Shown here: in pieces, positions 561 to 15,340 of the stretch
Layout: every line of letters starts with the position of its first letter
Numbering within the stretch: the first letter of the stretch is position 1
Notes under the pieces: model-generated
Databases searched by the model: none
Told to the model about the DNA's origin: nothing
What the model saw: only the letters and a program-made list of their open reading frames with translations
Program-made: the position numbers and the translations under genes
IMG/VR virus record: IMGVR_UViG_3300046524_000359
Span: 1 to 49,744 of that record
Reading direction: 5' to 3' (one strand)
Origin: a virus
DNA: 49,744 nt

Positions 561-591
561 GCGCAAAACCCGCGCAAAACTGGCGCAAAAC
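561..591 (+). repeat. Three GCGCAAAAC direct repeats, likely integrase arm-type sites
   Basis: The 9-mer GCGCAAAAC occurs three times at an exact 11-bp period (561, 572, 583), between attL and the int stop codon. A fourth copy lies inside the right end at 42609-42617. Lambda-type integrases bind short direct repeats in the attP arms through an N-terminal domain, which fits this spacing and position. The binding role is inferred. Confidence 0.6.
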
Positions 592-1706
592 TACCCGGTG
601 ATTTCGCTGATATTGAGGTCGGGAATCGCTTCGGTCCAGACCACTTCGGCGTGGTCCCGCTGGTAGTTTTTGGTCATGGTCTCGCTCGCGTGGCCCGCGA
701 TCTTCTGCCCGTCTTTTCCGGCTTTCTGGTACAGGTGCAGCGACAATGCTCGCACTTCGTGGAAGCCCGGCATTTCCTCTTCCTTCCATCCCTTGTAACA
801 CTCCGCCGCCTCCCGAGCCTCTTTGAAGGCCCTCGTCAAATACCGTTCTTCAACCTGCGTCCAGTGGTCTTTCGTCTGCGCCTGCTTCTGCTTCTTGCGG
901 TCAGGCCGGCGGTGCACCAGGTACGGAGAGACGATGTCATCCCGGCACCGGCTGATCACAGCCTGGAGCTCGTCAGTGACTTTGAACCGTATCCATGCCG
1001 CGTCGCTGGCTTTGGCCGTCTTCTGCTGCACCACGTACAGAAACCCCTCCCGAACGCCGTCGAAGCGCAGGTTGAGGATGTCGGTGCGGCGTTGCGCGGT
1101 GATAAGCGCCAGGTCGATAGCGTTCTGCAGCCAGGCTGGCGACTTCTCCCGGATGGCTTTCAGGCCCTCAATGGTGTGTCGCTTGCGCTGCTTCTTCTCG
1201 ATCCGGTTAATGGTGCTGGCGGCCGGGTTGTCCGGACACAGTCCCTTCGATGCCGCGTGGTTGAAGATGTCGATCAGCAGTGCCCGGCACTGGTTGGCGG
1301 TGCGCGGGGTGAGGGCGTCCAGCATCTCCGCGATCATGCGGATCGTGATCTGGTCCACGGCCTTCCCTTCAAACTGCTTGCGGAAGCGCCGGAAGTGCAC
1401 CGCGTACAGGCCCAGGGTACCTTTCGCCAGTTCGCGGGGCGGCAGGATGTCTTGTTCGTAGGTGTCGAGAAAGCCGGTGAACAGATCCGACGTGCTGCCC
1501 TTCACGGCGCCGATCAGGTCGGCGCCTCGCATAAATTCCAGGTTCAGCTGCTTGGCGGCATCAATAGCCTTGATGCGATCGGTGCCGAACTGAAACCACT
1601 TACCGTCGGTAGGCCGCCGGTAGCGATAAGTCGAGCGCCGCGGATCAAAGTACAGGTTCTGCGGGAGGCTCTTGTTCGCCTTGTTGCGCGGCCTTGGGAC
1701 CATCAT
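591..1706 (-). CDS. int: Prophage tyrosine integrase
   Basis: Catalyses site-specific recombination between attP and the tRNA-Pro attB. The 371-residue protein has an arm-binding N-terminus (about 1-60), a SAM-like core-binding domain (about 70-160) and a catalytic domain. The visible active-site set is R206/R207 in TAQRRTDIL, K229, H316 and R319 in HEVRA, H339 in AGHAS and the nucleophile Y348. It is the last gene of the leftward operon, next to attL, and overlaps the upstream xis-like gene by 4 nt. Its C-terminal codons end in the third arm-type repeat. Confidence 0.93.
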   Translation of the reverse strand: MMVPRPRNKANKSLPQNLYFDPRRSTYRYRRPTDGKWFQFGTDRIKAIDAAKQLNLEFMRGADLIGAVKGSTSDLFTGFLDTYEQDILPPRELAKGTLGLYAVHFRRFRKQFEGKAVDQITIRMIAEMLDALTPRTANQCRALLIDIFNHAASKGLCPDNPAASTINRIEKKQRKRHTIEGLKAIREKSPAWLQNAIDLALITAQRRTDILNLRFDGVREGFLYVVQQKTAKASDAAWIRFKVTDELQAVISRCRDDIVSPYLVHRRPDRKKQKQAQTKDHWTQVEERYLTRAFKEAREAAECYKGWKEEEMPGFHEVRALSLHLYQKAGKDGQKIAGHASETMTKNYQRDHAEVVWTEAIPDLNISEITG

Positions 1707-4638: not shown

Positions 4639-5028
4639 TTATGCGGCCTGGTCTTGCTGCTTTGGCGGCCATTCCGAAAATCCCACGCGAGGCGCTTTCG
4701 TTTTCGGGTTGATGATTGGTTTGCCCTTGGCGTCTACCAGTACCGCCTTGGCCCTGATCTGCATGTCGCGGCACCTCAGAGTTTTGCGGGCCAGCTCAAT
4801 GAACTGTTCGGCGTACTGCGGGGCGTCGAAGAGCGGTGATAGCTGGCGGACCGTACCCCCCCCCATAATCTTCTCGGCGCGCTTTGCGACCAGCTCCAGC
4901 CATTCAGCCTCAGGGATTGGCTCGACGCCACCAGGTGCTTTGGCGTTCTTCCGGGTGCCAGCCGTCTTCTTGCGGGCCTCGGTCTTGGCGACATCGAGGG
5001 TCATTCCAAACACTGCAAAGGTGCTCAT
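4639..5028 (-). CDS. Phage protein of unknown function
   Basis: A 129-residue basic protein: a lysine-rich, probably disordered N-terminus (TEARKKTAGTRKNAKAPG), then a helical part with AEWLELVAKRAEKI and a segment containing MQIRAKAVLVDAKGKP. It is the upstream member of the leftward group interrupted by the oppositely oriented moron, so it may have a promoter of its own in the 5029-5128 gap. No function assigned. Confidence 0.68.
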   Translation of the reverse strand: MSTFAVFGMTLDVAKTEARKKTAGTRKNAKAPGGVEPIPEAEWLELVAKRAEKIMGGGTVRQLSPLFDAPQYAEQFIELARKTLRCRDMQIRAKAVLVDAKGKPIINPKTKAPRVGFSEWPPKQQDQAA

Positions 5029-5128
5029 GGGTTATCTCCAGGCGTGCGCCTGCCTCGCCGGCTGGCGTGATTCGTTGAAGTGGGGTATTTGTGTTCGGCC
5101 CGGCATGGAGACGAACGGTGAGCAAAAT

Positions 5129-5770
5129 ATGAAGTGGAGCGACGCGGTCTTGTTGGCGGTCACAGGCTCTGGCTTGTTCATGGCTGGAGTGGTTTGGCGC
5201 CCGGTGTTTGGTGATTACGCGAAACTCAAAGACGCGCTGGAATGCACCAGTTTTTTGGCGACAGCTGTTGCGGCTGTGGTGGCGATCTACACGTTGAATG
5301 CCTGGAAAGCCCAATTCACCCATGCCGAGCGTTTCAAGTCGTTAAAGGATTTGAAGGATGCGGCTACGGACTTGCACACTTTGCGAGGCTACCTCCTTGC
5401 GATTGAGCGAAGCTGCGCCCATCGGATGCACTCAGAGGGCATGCCCAGTGTGGAGCTCTTTGAGGAGGAAGAGGAGGCGAAGAAAAAGTGGCTGATTGCC
5501 CTGCAGGCATACACTCGAGCATGGAGTACGGCGGTAGTATTTTTCTCTCCAGAAGAGGAACAAAGCTTTAGCGGCCCAGCAAACGTGTTCACTGAAAAAT
5601 ACATTCAAGACACTTTGCGAATTGCAGCGCTATATGCCAACGCCCCGGCACCTGAGAGCTTCGGTTTATTTACGCATAATGTCAGAGAGGTAACTGAATC
5701 AGCTCGAGACCTATATGCACGCACTCTCTCTGAGCTTGAGTTGATGTTGCGCCGAAAATTCAGGTCTTAG
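5129..5770 (+). CDS. Two-TM membrane moron with cytoplasmic helical domain
   Basis: A 213-residue protein on the strand opposite to all its neighbours. Two membrane helices (about residues 5-22 and 39-57) precede a long helical soluble part with an acidic run (FEEEEEAKKK, about 111-120). The start MKWSDAVLL follows GGTGAG at a good distance; an ATG eight codons upstream lacks a ribosome site. The orientation, lower GC and neat insertion between leftward genes mark an accessory gene. Membrane proteins in such places often exclude other phages, but no family is recognised. Confidence 0.72.
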   Translation: MKWSDAVLLAVTGSGLFMAGVVWRPVFGDYAKLKDALECTSFLATAVAAVVAIYTLNAWKAQFTHAERFKSLKDLKDAATDLHTLRGYLLAIERSCAHRMHSEGMPSVELFEEEEEAKKKWLIALQAYTRAWSTAVVFFSPEEEQSFSGPANVFTEKYIQDTLRIAALYANAPAPESFGLFTHNVREVTESARDLYARTLSELELMLRRKFRS

Positions 5771-6225: not shown

Positions 6226-6534
6226 TCATGAGGAAAACGCGAACCCGTTCTCGTGCGCGATGAGCTTGACGCGGGCTGGCCGCATCTTCAGCTCGGCGGC
6301 GGTGGCTGCCAGGGTCTTGCCGGCATCGGCTAGGGCTTTTACACCTGGTGCCAGCTTGGCGCGCTCGGCCTTGAGTCGGTCCTGATGGGAGGAGGCGCCG
6401 TAGCCGACCATTTCGGCGCTTACGCCGCTGGCGATCTGCTGGACCTCCCCGCCTGCGCCGTAGAACTTGTCTATCTGCAGGTTCAGGTCGGCGATGATCG
6501 AATCGCGTGGGTTCGGCATTGGTACGCCGATCAT
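6226..6534 (-). CDS. Phage protein, possible C-terminal helix-turn-helix
   Basis: A 102-residue protein whose C-terminal half (GKTLAATAAELKMRPARVKLIAHENG, split here by description only) reads like a helix-turn-helix; the N-terminus (PRDSIIADLNLQIDKFYGAGG) is helical. It overlaps the stop of the upstream gene by 4 nt. Similar small proteins occur next to each other in Pseudomonas prophages. DNA binding is a guess. Confidence 0.62.
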   Translation of the reverse strand: MIGVPMPNPRDSIIADLNLQIDKFYGAGGEVQQIASGVSAEMVGYGASSHQDRLKAERAKLAPGVKALADAGKTLAATAAELKMRPARVKLIAHENGFAFSS

Positions 6535-6812
6535 TTCCGCTCACCATTCAGCGAGACCTTGATGCCGTCGGCGCGCGCCTCCAGTACCTGGGCGAAGTTG
6601 ACGGCGGCCTTCCATGTCCAGCGGAAGCCCTTGGTCAAGCCGGTGGAGAGTTCAACGATGTGATAGGCGTTGCCCTTGGTCTGCACCTGGTAGCGAATCT
6701 GTTGCACTGGCTGCTCCCGGCCGATCATGGCGTAGAACGCGGCGGTGGCGATGCGTGAGCGAATGTGCAGGGCAGCAACCCCGTCGACCCGCTGTTGGAT
6801 GGCTTGATGCAT
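6531..6812 (-). CDS. Phage protein of unknown function
   Basis: A 93-residue protein (MHQAIQQRVDGVAALH...) with a beta-rich middle (IRYQVQTKGNAYHIVELS) and a helical end. It is the first gene after the terminator at 6911-6938, so its transcription from the main left promoter would need antitermination unless a local promoter exists. No domain recognised. Confidence 0.65.
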   Translation of the reverse strand: MHQAIQQRVDGVAALHIRSRIATAAFYAMIGREQPVQQIRYQVQTKGNAYHIVELSTGLTKGFRWTWKAAVNFAQVLEARADGIKVSLNGERK

Positions 6813-6910
6813 GGCGATACCTCAATGGGGTTGCGTGTATTCGTCAGCACTCAGGCCGCCTGCTGTTTGCCGTTGGGCGCAGAGGGGAGTGCTGACGGAT
6901 AAACGCGGGC

Positions 6911-6938
6911 GAAAAAAAGCCCGAGGATTCCCGGGCTT
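6911..6938 (-). terminator. Leftward intrinsic terminator, tL1-like
   Basis: Read leftward, a stem of AGCCCG / CGGGCT with an inner GC-rich loop is followed by a run of seven U. It lies within the leftward operon, downstream of the TerB-like gene pair and upstream of the genes leading to int, as tL1 does in lambda. Confidence 0.75.
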
Positions 6939-7039
6939 TCGTTGTGCTCCACAGAGGCCTCCCTATGTGAAGCTGGTGCCGCTGTTGGGCGGTCTTCGAT
7001 CGGTCGGTTACATGGCTGCCAATCCTCCGTGCTGAGTTG

Positions 7040-7064
7040 AACTAGGGCATTTTTTGCCCTAGTT
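7040..7064. repeat. Perfect inverted repeat (AACTAGGGCA arms)
   Basis: Ten-base arms AACTAGGGCA / TGCCCTAGTT enclose five T. It lies in the gap below the two-gene TerB-like cluster, where it could act as an RNA hairpin or a weak terminator. The rest of the 6939-7145 gap shows no gene. Confidence 0.5.
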
Positions 7065-7145
7065 GGTGACTGCGGGGGGCCGCGTTGCGCGGTGCAGAAT
7101 CATCCGCATCCCGCTGCCCACTCAGTGAATGGGCAGAAGTGATGC

Positions 7146-7352
7146 TTATTGAACGGCGCGCAGTTCGCTACGCAGCACCCAGCTTCCGGAGACTTTCGCC
7201 ATACAGCCAACGAATGGGGCGTATTTCGTTTCTCTGTCAGTCTGGTAGCCGTAGTAGGAGCAGATGCCGCGATGGATAACGCTGTTGGCAATGACTACCA
7301 GGGCGATGGCCGCGGCAGAGATGATCAGCGCCTGCCTTTGTCGCTGCCTCAC
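7146..7352 (-). CDS. Small single-pass membrane protein
   Basis: A 68-residue protein with a basic start (MRQRQRQ), one membrane helix (about 9-26, LIISAAAIALVVIANSVI) and an extracytoplasmic tail holding two cysteines (ICSYYGYQ, GCMAKVSG) that could form a disulphide. It overlaps the TerB-like gene by 4 nt (ATGA) and is probably co-translated with it. Function unknown. Confidence 0.66.
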   Translation of the reverse strand: MRQRQRQALIISAAAIALVVIANSVIHRGICSYYGYQTDRETKYAPFVGCMAKVSGSWVLRSELRAVQ

Positions 7353-7786
7353 GCCTCAATACCGAAGTCTTTGAGGCGCAGGCCCAGCTCATTGCCGATC
7401 TCGCCGAGAACCTTCAGCTCTTCGGGGCTGATGTTGCCGTCGCCTTCGGCAACGGTGAGCATGTTCACGAATACCTCTTCCGCATCCGCCGGGTTGTTTT
7501 TGATGTCGCGAATCTCGCGCAGGATGTTCATGCGGCCGAGACGGAAACCGGCCTGCAACTGCTCGGTGAACAGGTTGACCGTGCTGGTGATCTCGGAGCC
7601 GAAATGCTCCAGCGCTTTGTTGGCCCGGATCTGGATATCAATCTGGGCGGCTTCGTTCTTGCTGATCTCGCCGTCCGACGCTGCTACCAGAAGGCAGCCG
7701 CCGACGATGGCTTGCATCAGGTCGCGATTTTCCAGTTTCTTGACGGCGCGCTTGGCGCCGAACAGCTTCTTACCGATACCGAACAT
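7349..7786 (-). CDS. TerB-like (tellurite resistance fold) protein
   Basis: A 145-residue TerB-family protein. The hallmark acidic helix pairs are present: GCLLVAASDGEISKNEAAQI and a second repeat LTVAEGDGNISPEELKVL, which in TerB-like proteins form metal-binding helical hairpins. It is the first gene after the left promoter and nut-like site, the position N takes in lambda, but it has none of N's arginine-rich character. Free-standing TerB proteins in phages are thought to act at membranes or in stress; its role here is unknown. Confidence 0.8.
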   Translation of the reverse strand: MFGIGKKLFGAKRAVKKLENRDLMQAIVGGCLLVAASDGEISKNEAAQIDIQIRANKALEHFGSEITSTVNLFTEQLQAGFRLGRMNILREIRDIKNNPADAEEVFVNMLTVAEGDGNISPEELKVLGEIGNELGLRLKDFGIEA

Positions 7787-7921
7787 GGTGATTCCTCTGG
7801 TTGGGTTACATCCCGCTGCACCCTGTCGCCAAGGTGCAGAAGTGATGCTTTTCCGTACTTCTCAGCAAACCTTGCGTGCCGAGTTACCGGACACGGAAGC
7901 AGGCTGTGTTTCGTTGTTGTT

Positions 7922-7964
7922 CCCTGATCGCAATCAGGGTCTGTCTTCTGGTTGTTAAAGAGCG
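7922..7964 (-). promoter_or_regulatory. nutL-like site: boxA plus boxB hairpin
   Basis: On the leftward strand, CGCTCTTTAACAA (7964-7952) matches the ribosomal and lambdoid boxA consensus. Twelve bases on is a perfect hairpin, CCCTGAT-TGCG-ATCAGGG (7939-7922), in boxB position. It is transcribed at the head of the left operon, between the promoter and the TerB-like gene. This is the arrangement at which NusB/S10 and an N-like factor load to make polymerase ignore terminators. Seen directly: the motifs; inferred: their use. Confidence 0.65.
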
Positions 7965-8006
7965 GCGCGGCTTTCGCTGCTGGCCGTTGTTGCTTGGCTT
8001 GGGATA

Positions 8007-8036
8007 AATATAAGCCTGCTTATTCGTGGGCGTCAA
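8007..8036 (-). promoter_or_regulatory. Left early promoter (pL-like)
   Basis: Leftward -35 TTGACG (8036-8031) and -10 TATATT (8012-8007) are separated by 18 bp (17 if TTATAT is used). One repressor operator covers the -10 and another overlaps the -35, so CI bound there would exclude polymerase. It should drive the leftward early operon starting with the TerB-like gene. Confidence 0.75.
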
Positions 8037-8049
8037 TAAGTAGACTTAT
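8010..8049. promoter_or_regulatory. Left operators, two ATAAG-N4-CTTAT sites
   Basis: ATAAGCCTGCTTAT (8010-8023) and ATAAGTAGACTTAT (8036-8049) are perfect in both half-sites and 26 bp apart. The same dyad recurs three times between cI and cro. They are therefore the left counterpart of the immunity operators. Confidence 0.78.
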
Positions 8050-8067
8050 AAAATTTCTTCGAGGCGC

Positions 8068-10012: not shown

Positions 10013-10024
10013 ACCTCTAAATTT

Positions 10025-10085
10025 ATAAGTTCCCTTATTGCCTTGCAAATAAGCCTCCTTCTCCCTACGATATAAGCGTGCTTAT
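10025..10085. promoter_or_regulatory. Right operators, three sites between cI and cro
   Basis: ATAAGTTCCCTTAT (10025-10038) and ATAAGCGTGCTTAT (10072-10085) are perfect ATAAG-N4-CTTAT dyads; a weaker site, ATAAGCCTCCTTCT (10049-10062), lies between. The spacings are 24 and 23 bp, about two helical turns, as in the lambda OR1-OR3 array. The outer sites overlap the starts of the cI and cro transcripts. Confidence 0.8.
10043..10071 (+). promoter_or_regulatory. Right early promoter (pR-like)
   Basis: TTGCAA (10043-10048) and TACGAT (10066-10071) are 17 bp apart, with the middle operator in the spacer and the third over the start. It should drive cro, the CII-like gene and the replication genes. 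A leftward maintenance promoter is less clear: TTGCAA is palindromic and TATAAA lies 15 bp beyond it. Confidence 0.6.
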
Positions 10086-10099
10086 CAGGAGGGCTCTCT

Positions 10100-13635: not shown

Positions 13636-14063
13636 AGCCGGTGACCATGAAGGTGTTCAAGCCGCGCAGCCCCCGGGCCAAGCCCGTCGATCGTGAAGGG
13701 TTGGAGCAGGCCGCGCTGATGGCCGAGCTGCGCCTGCGAATGCCCGAGGTTGCCGACCTGATCTATCACGTGCCCAACGGTGGGCACCGGGTTAAGGCTG
13801 TGGCCGCGAAGCTGAAGGCTCAGGGCGTTAAGGCCGGTATCCCTGATCTGGTGCTGCCGATGGCCCGGGGTGGCTACTTCGGCCTGTACCTCGAGTTCAA
13901 AGCCACACCGCCTTACGACGCCGCGGTTTCGGCCAGCCAGCACGAACGGATCCGCAAGCTCAGCGATCAGGGCTATCTGGCTATCGTGTGCCGCGGCCAC
14001 TTCGACGCGATGGAGCAGATCCGCGCCTATCTGCGTCTGGTGCCGACAGTGGTGGCGGCATGA
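13632..14063 (+). CDS. VRR-NUC nuclease
   Basis: A 143-residue protein with all VRR-NUC hallmarks: YHVPNGGHR, then GVKAGIPDLVLP with the metal-binding Asp and GLYLEFK with the catalytic Glu-x-Lys. This is a PD-(D/E)XK-type fold; phage single-domain members may cut branched DNA. It follows the replication genes and overlaps the second recombinase gene by 4 nt, suggesting joint work on replication or recombination intermediates. Confidence 0.88.
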   Translation: MKPVTMKVFKPRSPRAKPVDREGLEQAALMAELRLRMPEVADLIYHVPNGGHRVKAVAAKLKAQGVKAGIPDLVLPMARGGYFGLYLEFKATPPYDAAVSASQHERIRKLSDQGYLAIVCRGHFDAMEQIRAYLRLVPTVVAA

Positions 14064-15340
14064 CGACGGCTGCAGTAAAGATCACCGACACCGAGATCAA
14101 ACGCCAGGCCGCCGGGGGCGTGCGGGATCTGCGCGACATCGAGAACCGGGGCCTATACCTGCGCTTCACTCGCGATCGTGCTCGCGCCTCGTGGTACCTG
14201 GTGCAGAAGGGCAAGTGGAACCTCGTCGGCAGCTTCCCTGACTTGAGTGCCAAGCAGGTGGTTGCGGCCTTGCCGGGCATTCGCCTGCGCTTGGATGCCG
14301 GTGCCGGGTCGAACCTGTCGAAGTGGGTGTTGGTCGGTGAGCTGCTGGACTGGTACGCCGACCGCATGGCCCGCGACCGCAGCCTGTCGAGCAAACGCAA
14401 GAAGACCGGTGCATCGCTGATTAAGTGCCACCTGAAGCCGCTGCTGGGCGCCGTGCCGCTGGCGTCGATCGACAAGGCCACGCTGGACGACAAGTTCATG
14501 TGGCCGGCGCAGGAATCCATCGGCATCGATTACGTGCGCTCCGCGTTCCAGTTGCTGGCCCTGGCCTTCCGCCAGGCGTTCAAGCTGCGGCTGATCGCGG
14601 CCAACCCGATGAAGGACGTCAAGTTCAGCGACTTCTCCAAGGCCAAGGTGGGTGTAAAGCCGTCGCGCCTGCGCGTCACTCAACTGCAGGACCTGATCAG
14701 CCAATTGCGAGAGGCCGTGGCCAGCGCGCCGGCGGATGCCATGTTCGCCCTGATGATGCTTTGCCATGGCACGCGCATTGGTGAAACCCGCCAGGCCCAG
14801 TGGTCTCACATCACCCTGGCCGAGCGCGAGTGGTTCATTCCGGCCGAGCACACCAAGACCGGCGTTGAGCATCACCTGCCATTGACCGACCAGGTGCGGC
14901 AGATGCTGATCAACTACCGCGACCTGCAGTGGGCGAACGGTTATGACGGGCAGTACCTGTTCCCGGCACGCAACGGCAAGGCACTCAGCGAGGGGCAGGC
15001 GAGCGCCGTGTTCACCCGGCTGGGGAAGGGCGAGTGGACCAGTCACGACCTGCGCAAAGTGGCCCGCACCGGCTGGGCAGACATTGGCATTGACCACCTG
15101 ATTGGCGAGCTGCTGATCAACCACGCCATGGGCCACAACGTGAAGGTGTACATCCAGTCCGACGTGATGGGGCGCAAGCGTGAGGCGTTGGATCGGTGGT
15201 GTGCCTATCTAGATTCGAAAGGCTTCAAGCGGATCCACACATTGACCGGCTTTAGATTCGGAGATTCCGGTAATGCTCTGGAAGCCACGGAAAACAAGGG
15301 CTGCGAGGCCATTCAAGAATCAACCATAGGCGAGGTTTAA
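14060..15340 (+). CDS. Second tyrosine recombinase, in the replication module
   Basis: A 426-residue recombinase starting MTTAAVKITD inside the VRR-NUC stop. The catalytic set is complete: R239 in HGTRIGETRQ, K266 in HTKTG, H329 and R332 in SHDLRKVAR, H355, and the nucleophile Y364 in VKVYIQSD. The layout (DUF4102-like N-terminus, then core-binding and P4-type catalytic domains) is that of an integrase. Because it is 12 kb from attL and another integrase is present, it may resolve multimers or act on another site. The last 40 residues are poorly conserved in appearance. Confidence 0.85.
   Translation: MTTAAVKITDTEIKRQAAGGVRDLRDIENRGLYLRFTRDRARASWYLVQKGKWNLVGSFPDLSAKQVVAALPGIRLRLDAGAGSNLSKWVLVGELLDWYADRMARDRSLSSKRKKTGASLIKCHLKPLLGAVPLASIDKATLDDKFMWPAQESIGIDYVRSAFQLLALAFRQAFKLRLIAANPMKDVKFSDFSKAKVGVKPSRLRVTQLQDLISQLREAVASAPADAMFALMMLCHGTRIGETRQAQWSHITLAEREWFIPAEHTKTGVEHHLPLTDQVRQMLINYRDLQWANGYDGQYLFPARNGKALSEGQASAVFTRLGKGEWTSHDLRKVARTGWADIGIDHLIGELLINHAMGHNVKVYIQSDVMGRKREALDRWCAYLDSKGFKRIHTLTGFRFGDSGNALEATENKGCEAIQESTIGEV

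Follow-up and report, generated by a model that had tools for sequence, protein, structure and literature searches.

A structured boxA leader RNA at the PL-like promoter of Pseudomonas temperate phages as a candidate for antitermination without N

The rrn antitermination system is a boxB-boxA-boxC leader with NusA/B/E/G, SuhB and S4, and rrn-type boxA complexes are best known for their resistance to Rho, while intrinsic terminators are resisted less well. Functional boxA elements tested in E. coli follow the consensus GYTCTTTAANA, and outside of rRNA boxA has been found in the 5' UTRs of suhB in E. coli and of ParE-toxin leaders, where it lies close to the start codon and is repressive (PMC5725501). 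In lambda, the nutL site follows PL and its operators as a hairpin, boxA and a second hairpin, with early genes and an intrinsic terminator downstream. Phage HK022 lacks N and instead carries the put RNA, a structure of ~70 nt with two stems that is present at both putL and putR, and for which no boxA is mentioned (PMC9378689). A 2020 study of P. aeruginosa phage YA3, the early region of which was compared with that of D3, did not detect a homolog of N, and its authors surmised that the early terminators are crossed with the help of the protein in N's place (PMC7326022). Here we describe the leftward early region of a virus record in IMG/VR that is 49,744 bases long (the whole stretch that was analysed, hereafter the window), for which a preliminary description had proposed a complete lambda-style left antitermination layout.

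The leftward early region

The window has a lambda-like early region, which also includes an antirepressor and O-like and P-like replication genes; judging from its relatives, its host would be Pseudomonas. On the minus strand, downstream of a PL-like promoter with flanking operators, come an exact copy of boxA and a hairpin, then two genes, and finally a strong intrinsic terminator.

10379: CII family gene
10100, rightward: cro
10048-9356, leftward: cI
8092-8065: terminator-like hairpin and T run, left of cI and before the leftward promoter
8035-8050: outer left operator-like palindrome, AATAAGTAGACTTATA
8007-8036, minus strand: PL-like promoter, -35 TTGACG (8036-8031), 18 nt, -10 TATATT (8012-8007)
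8009-8024: inner left operator-like palindrome, TATAAGCCTGCTTATT, overlapping the -10
7953-7963, minus strand: boxA, GCTCTTTAACA, exact
7349-7786, minus strand: TerB-family gene, the first in the left operon (Pfam TerB 2e-10; PHROG 632 7e-53)
7146-7352, minus strand: second gene, 68 aa (PHROG 27356 6e-21)
7008-7013, minus strand: ATG TAA minigene, preceded by a strong ribosome-binding site
6911-6938, minus strand: intrinsic terminator, G+C-rich stem, run of seven T, dG -13.8 kcal/mol
6833-6906, minus strand: conserved long hairpin, inverted repeat I1, GTCAGCACTC..GAGTGCTGAC with an inner stem
6531-6812, minus strand: PHROG 6742 family gene, the first one past the terminator, start at 6812
591-1706, minus strand: int, integrase-family gene at the left end of the record

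Operators and promoters are consensus calls throughout, and some left-operon promoters may escape such a scan. By this measure the PL-like promoter is the top promoter-like site between 5000 and 12000 (score 10/12), and five operator-like palindromes of the form AATAAG-N4-CTTATT were found in the window against 0.46 expected, three of them at 10024-10086, between cI and cro. Among 99 related leaders, 66% have a promoter site of score 9 or higher, compared to 7% of shuffles, and the median distance from -10 to boxA is 47 nt. The boxA itself is the only copy in the window, where 0.01 would be expected by chance, and is thus not a chance match. It fits the published consensus and consists of the same 11 bases as the rrn-leader boxA of two Pseudomonas genomes, a sequence that is also present in phage D3. 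Since the promoter with operators, the exact and canonical leftward boxA, the hairpin, the two genes and the intrinsic terminator could all be found, the observation made in the preliminary description is confirmed.

The gene beyond the terminator lies on the same strand, and no sigma70-like site was seen in the window between the terminator and its start. Of the 52 loci in which the downstream DNA extends far enough, 26 carry this PHROG 6742 gene. Among 40 loci that have the gene, 29 show a terminator less than 450 nt upstream of it, mostly at 106-111 nt (~107), and this placement is kept even where the PHROG 6742 proteins are only 33-45% identical; a nearby terminator call is absent from 11 of the 40. 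A terminator in this position fits a barrier similar to lambda tL1, which PL transcripts would have to cross. The long hairpin that separates terminator and gene is likewise kept in relatives, with compensatory differences.

Just upstream of the terminator, a hairpin at 6969-6950 (minus strand) exposes an SD-like loop, TANGGAGGNNTT, and changes in its stem compensate among relatives. Minigenes of one to three codons that follow a strong ribosome-binding site, reminiscent of the lambda bar minigenes, occur on the leader strand of 33 of 66 related loci (including L008, L066, L175, L243, L246, L249 and L252), versus a single match in all of them on the opposite strand. Other versions read ATG AAA TAG, ATG TGA or ATG AAT ACA TAA, and they are often located 70-150 nt before the left-operon terminator. 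Elsewhere in the record, a second integrase-family gene is found within the right early region (13988-15340, plus strand), and a plus-strand ORF of 353 aa with weak matches only (4709-5770) is located among the leftward early genes, where it may interrupt leftward transcription towards int.

A covarying leader RNA and its relatives

Between promoter and first gene lies a conserved, covarying leader of ~150 nt that is present in many Pseudomonas phages, including D3. Its elements are listed here in order, with boxA between the first two.

7967-7980, minus strand: hairpin P0, GCAGC-GAAA-GCCGC, directly 5' of boxA
7922-7939, minus strand: hairpin P1, CCCTGAT-TGCG-ATCAGGG, a covarying helix
7863-7906, minus strand: nested domain P2 (helices P2a, P2b, P3 and P4), covariation in alignments A1 and A3
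7808-7848, minus strand: hairpin P5 with a TCACT...GGGA internal loop, just 5' of the first ORF

The structure that RNAalifold predicts from 25 sequences of this type, which we call class C, agrees with the one drawn by hand, and 96.6% of the cells are paired, versus 26-43% with slid partners. In an alignment of 43 sequences, two-sided changes are seen in 14 of 20 pairs, and none of 500 shuffles reaches any of five measures; this alignment leans towards the structure, because it was fitted to the covariance model. Upstream of boxA, the end of the last hairpin lies exactly 2 nt 5' of a CGCTC motif in 58% of 99 distinct leaders, compared to 12% of shuffles.

The covariance model R1 matches the window at 7965-7862 with 112 bits, the window being among the sequences from which it was built, and here the class C RNA occurs as a single copy, at PL. 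Members outside of the building set are L289-L303, L318 (phage IME307) and L322 (phage D3), the latter two with matches of 38.6 and 25 bits, respectively, at PL. Altogether, R1 recovered the class C RNA from at least about 28 viral contigs, and convincing members number at least about 15 in 399 Pseudomonas genomes, counts from these collection scans being lower bounds; 295 genomes of the order yielded none beyond the seed genome. The pattern with which class C was collected contained no boxA, and a boxA-like TCTTTA core is nonetheless found upstream in all of the at least 28 true matches. Chance pattern matches (L224, L227, L238, L242 and most of those in genome contigs) were discarded, as were weak R1 matches (L304-L307), which have neither a promoter nor a boxA. 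Rfam 15 has no family that reaches its gathering threshold in the window, with chance-level matches only at a relaxed threshold, and the literature searched, subscription journals being outside that search, held no description of the leader. That the leader belongs to a family of structured leader RNAs in Pseudomonas temperate phages, so far undescribed, is well supported. The one Rfam match obtained, an RT-15 RNA (178 bits) in Pseudomonas phage SC_8_H2H8_2017 (L002, 8627-8818), lies away from the leader.

P1 is the hairpin that had been described as a perfect boxB-like hairpin with a TGCG loop. While the hairpin is indeed present, it is no canonical boxB, as neither its length nor its loop is conserved: among relatives that keep P2, P1 can be as short as 18 nt or as long as ~50 nt, its loops are unrelated, and in L296, L300, L301 and L302 other modules replace it. 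What that description missed is that P1 belongs to the conserved, covarying leader. P5, in turn, is a 3' module common to leader classes A, B and C, the outer stem of which changes; it could not be identified as a known Rfam element. Hairpins of the P5 type (GCATCACT..GGGATG) occur in two copies within the one operon, at 7848-7808 and 7145-7106 (minus strand).

A blastn search of 1.7 kb against phages indicated that the stretch from -10 to boxA is kept in other Pseudomonas phages, while the DNA after boxA is quite different. Scanning viral contigs for boxA and two downstream motifs revealed a general pattern, in which an operator-flanked promoter is followed, after ~35-55 nt, by boxA and then by one of several structured RNAs. 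In class A, which includes phages phiPSA1 and phi2, an independent covarying RNA is located behind boxA, with two-sided changes in 19 of 33 pairs. A further class of phages (L059, L064, L065, L111 and L117) has two sites made up of boxA and a hairpin: one in a PL-like leader (nutL), the other following a small gene on the opposite strand (nutR). Their PL leader resembles that of lambda (CATCAGCAGGACGCA ... CTTTGGGGTGTG), with a boxA of the rrn type.

Likeness to rrn, nut and put

The Pseudomonas rrn leader, as read in two genomes, consists of the hairpin GGTTGAGCGAAAGCTTAACC, four bases and GCTCTTTAACAA, where the window has GCAGCGAAAGCCGC, three bases and GCTCTTTAACAA. In both, the hairpin is located immediately 5' of boxA, and the window shares AGCGAAAGC with the rrn hairpin. 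However, no boxC is recognised in the window, its promoter is phage-repressed, the operon is protein-coding, and boxA is followed by a covarying domain that is absent from the rrn leaders read. The order of hairpin and boxA was considered as an rrn-specific trait, and rejected: lambda's own PL leader likewise places a hairpin (CACC..GGTG) directly ahead of boxA, and thus geometry alone cannot tell rrn from nut. The letters of boxA do favour rrn, as lambda boxA reads GCTCTTAAAA.

With lambda nutL the leader shares its position after PL, the operators, the order of hairpin, boxA and hairpin, the early genes and the intrinsic terminator downstream. It differs in having no conserved 15-nt pentaloop boxB, in the additional P2 and P5, and in the absence of N and nutR; R1 has no match in lambda. 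Like put, it is a structured leader at the PL of a phage in which no N is recognised, with a proposed action in cis, but its architecture is different and it is present as a single copy. In the part of HK022 that was searched, which may not span the whole PL region, R1 gave no notable match.

The layout is therefore not complete in the lambda sense. No second boxA with two or fewer mismatches is present near cro, and since a boxA-like core occurs on the opposite strand in only one of 53 related loci, nutR is missing. As had been noted before, no N-like protein is recognisable: PHROGs and Pfam identify no N homolog among the left-operon genes scanned, a search from which a highly diverged N could escape, tblastn of lambda N against the window has a best E of 0.6, and none of the left-operon ORFs with family support has an N-like arginine-rich N terminus. 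The suggestion that the TerB-like gene, which holds N's position, might supply the factor is not supported. Coverage-filtered clustering of left-operon proteins within 4.5 kb of 39 class C leaders placed TerB in seven, a LuxR-type HTH protein in 16 and a PHROG 6742-like protein in 20, all of which are lower bounds because some loci are truncated, and no protein family was common to all 39. TerB was rejected as a common antiterminator on this count, and the PHROG 6742 protein was rejected as N, being present in half of the loci only and encoded beyond the terminator. The other suggestion, of an RNA that could do without N, is supported as an idea.

How the leader may act

So what would this leader do? 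We are inclined, if only by a modest lean, to view it as an N-independent, cis-acting antitermination leader, in which a host Nus complex at boxA is combined with a phage-specific RNA domain. The PL transcript would begin with this segment as its untranslated leader. As the leader exits RNA polymerase, the rRNA-type boxA and the upstream hairpin most likely recruit host NusB-NusE(S10), after which the rest of the Nus/SuhB complex most likely joins at boxA and shields the untranslated leader and early operon from Rho. Host Nus proteins are the most economical reading here, because boxA is reported to be required for rrn antitermination complexes and also to suffice for them (PMC10250234). P1, P2 and P5 most likely supply what boxA alone lacks, e.g. 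a put-like contact with polymerase; since rrn-type complexes resist intrinsic terminators less well than Rho, we infer by analogy with put that these elements would add resistance to the former. The intrinsic terminator at 6938-6911 would then be read through into the PHROG 6742 family gene, and a phage N would not be needed. This reading is supported by the rrn-identical boxA, the covariation, the position at PL in D3 and IME307, the lack of a common protein family, the conserved placement of the terminator and the presence of a different RNA in the same slot. Against it weigh that the visible terminator is an intrinsic one, and that the boxA of suhB represses. The structured domain could also have a function that is unrelated to termination.

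The main alternative, unlikely but serious, gives boxA the sole task of shielding the long untranslated leader from Rho, as in rRNA; the structured RNA would then be a separate regulator, acting through translation control, through sensing or as an sRNA, and the terminator would simply end or tune the first transcript. The sufficiency of boxA for the rrn complex (PMC10250234) would agree with such a division of labour, and so would the different RNAs that occupy the slot as if they were cargo. P5 directly precedes the first ORF and has a second copy at 7145-7106, and the minigene and the hairpin with the SD-like loop precede the terminator in an attenuator-like fashion. It leaves unaccounted for, however, why a gene without a visible promoter is located beyond the terminator, in an arrangement that is conserved.

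We find it doubtful that the leader is a true nut site, at which P1 (or P2) is the target of an unrecognised, phage-encoded N-like protein that acts together with Nus factors at boxA. The lambda-like order of promoter, hairpin, boxA and hairpin does speak for it, as do the corresponding hairpin before boxA in the lambda PL leader and the great diversity of N proteins. Yet P1 varies in length and loop, the left operons share no common protein, lambda N finds nothing in the window better than E 0.6, the family-supported ORFs lack an arginine-rich N terminus, and there is no nutR. It is very improbable that Nus factors at boxA instead keep the first gene from being translated and bring on termination by Rho, in the manner of E. 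coli suhB, a documented use of boxA (PMC5725501), for the suhB boxA lies near the ribosome-binding site, whereas here ~170 nt of conserved structure separate boxA from the first gene.

Returning to the N-independent leader, its relatives allow for a wider and more tentative proposal, to which we give somewhat less than an even chance. The Pseudomonas lambdoid phages, including D3, may employ a new class of N-independent processive antitermination, in which a host-rRNA-type boxA is combined with interchangeable, phage-specific structured RNAs, among them classes A, B and C, in place of N and nut. The conserved leader provides a concrete alternative to a protein in N's place, one that is testable in the classical laboratory phage D3, and it adds RNA families that are absent from Rfam. 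If the proposal is true, antitermination through a host-type boxA would reach into phage early operons that have no N.
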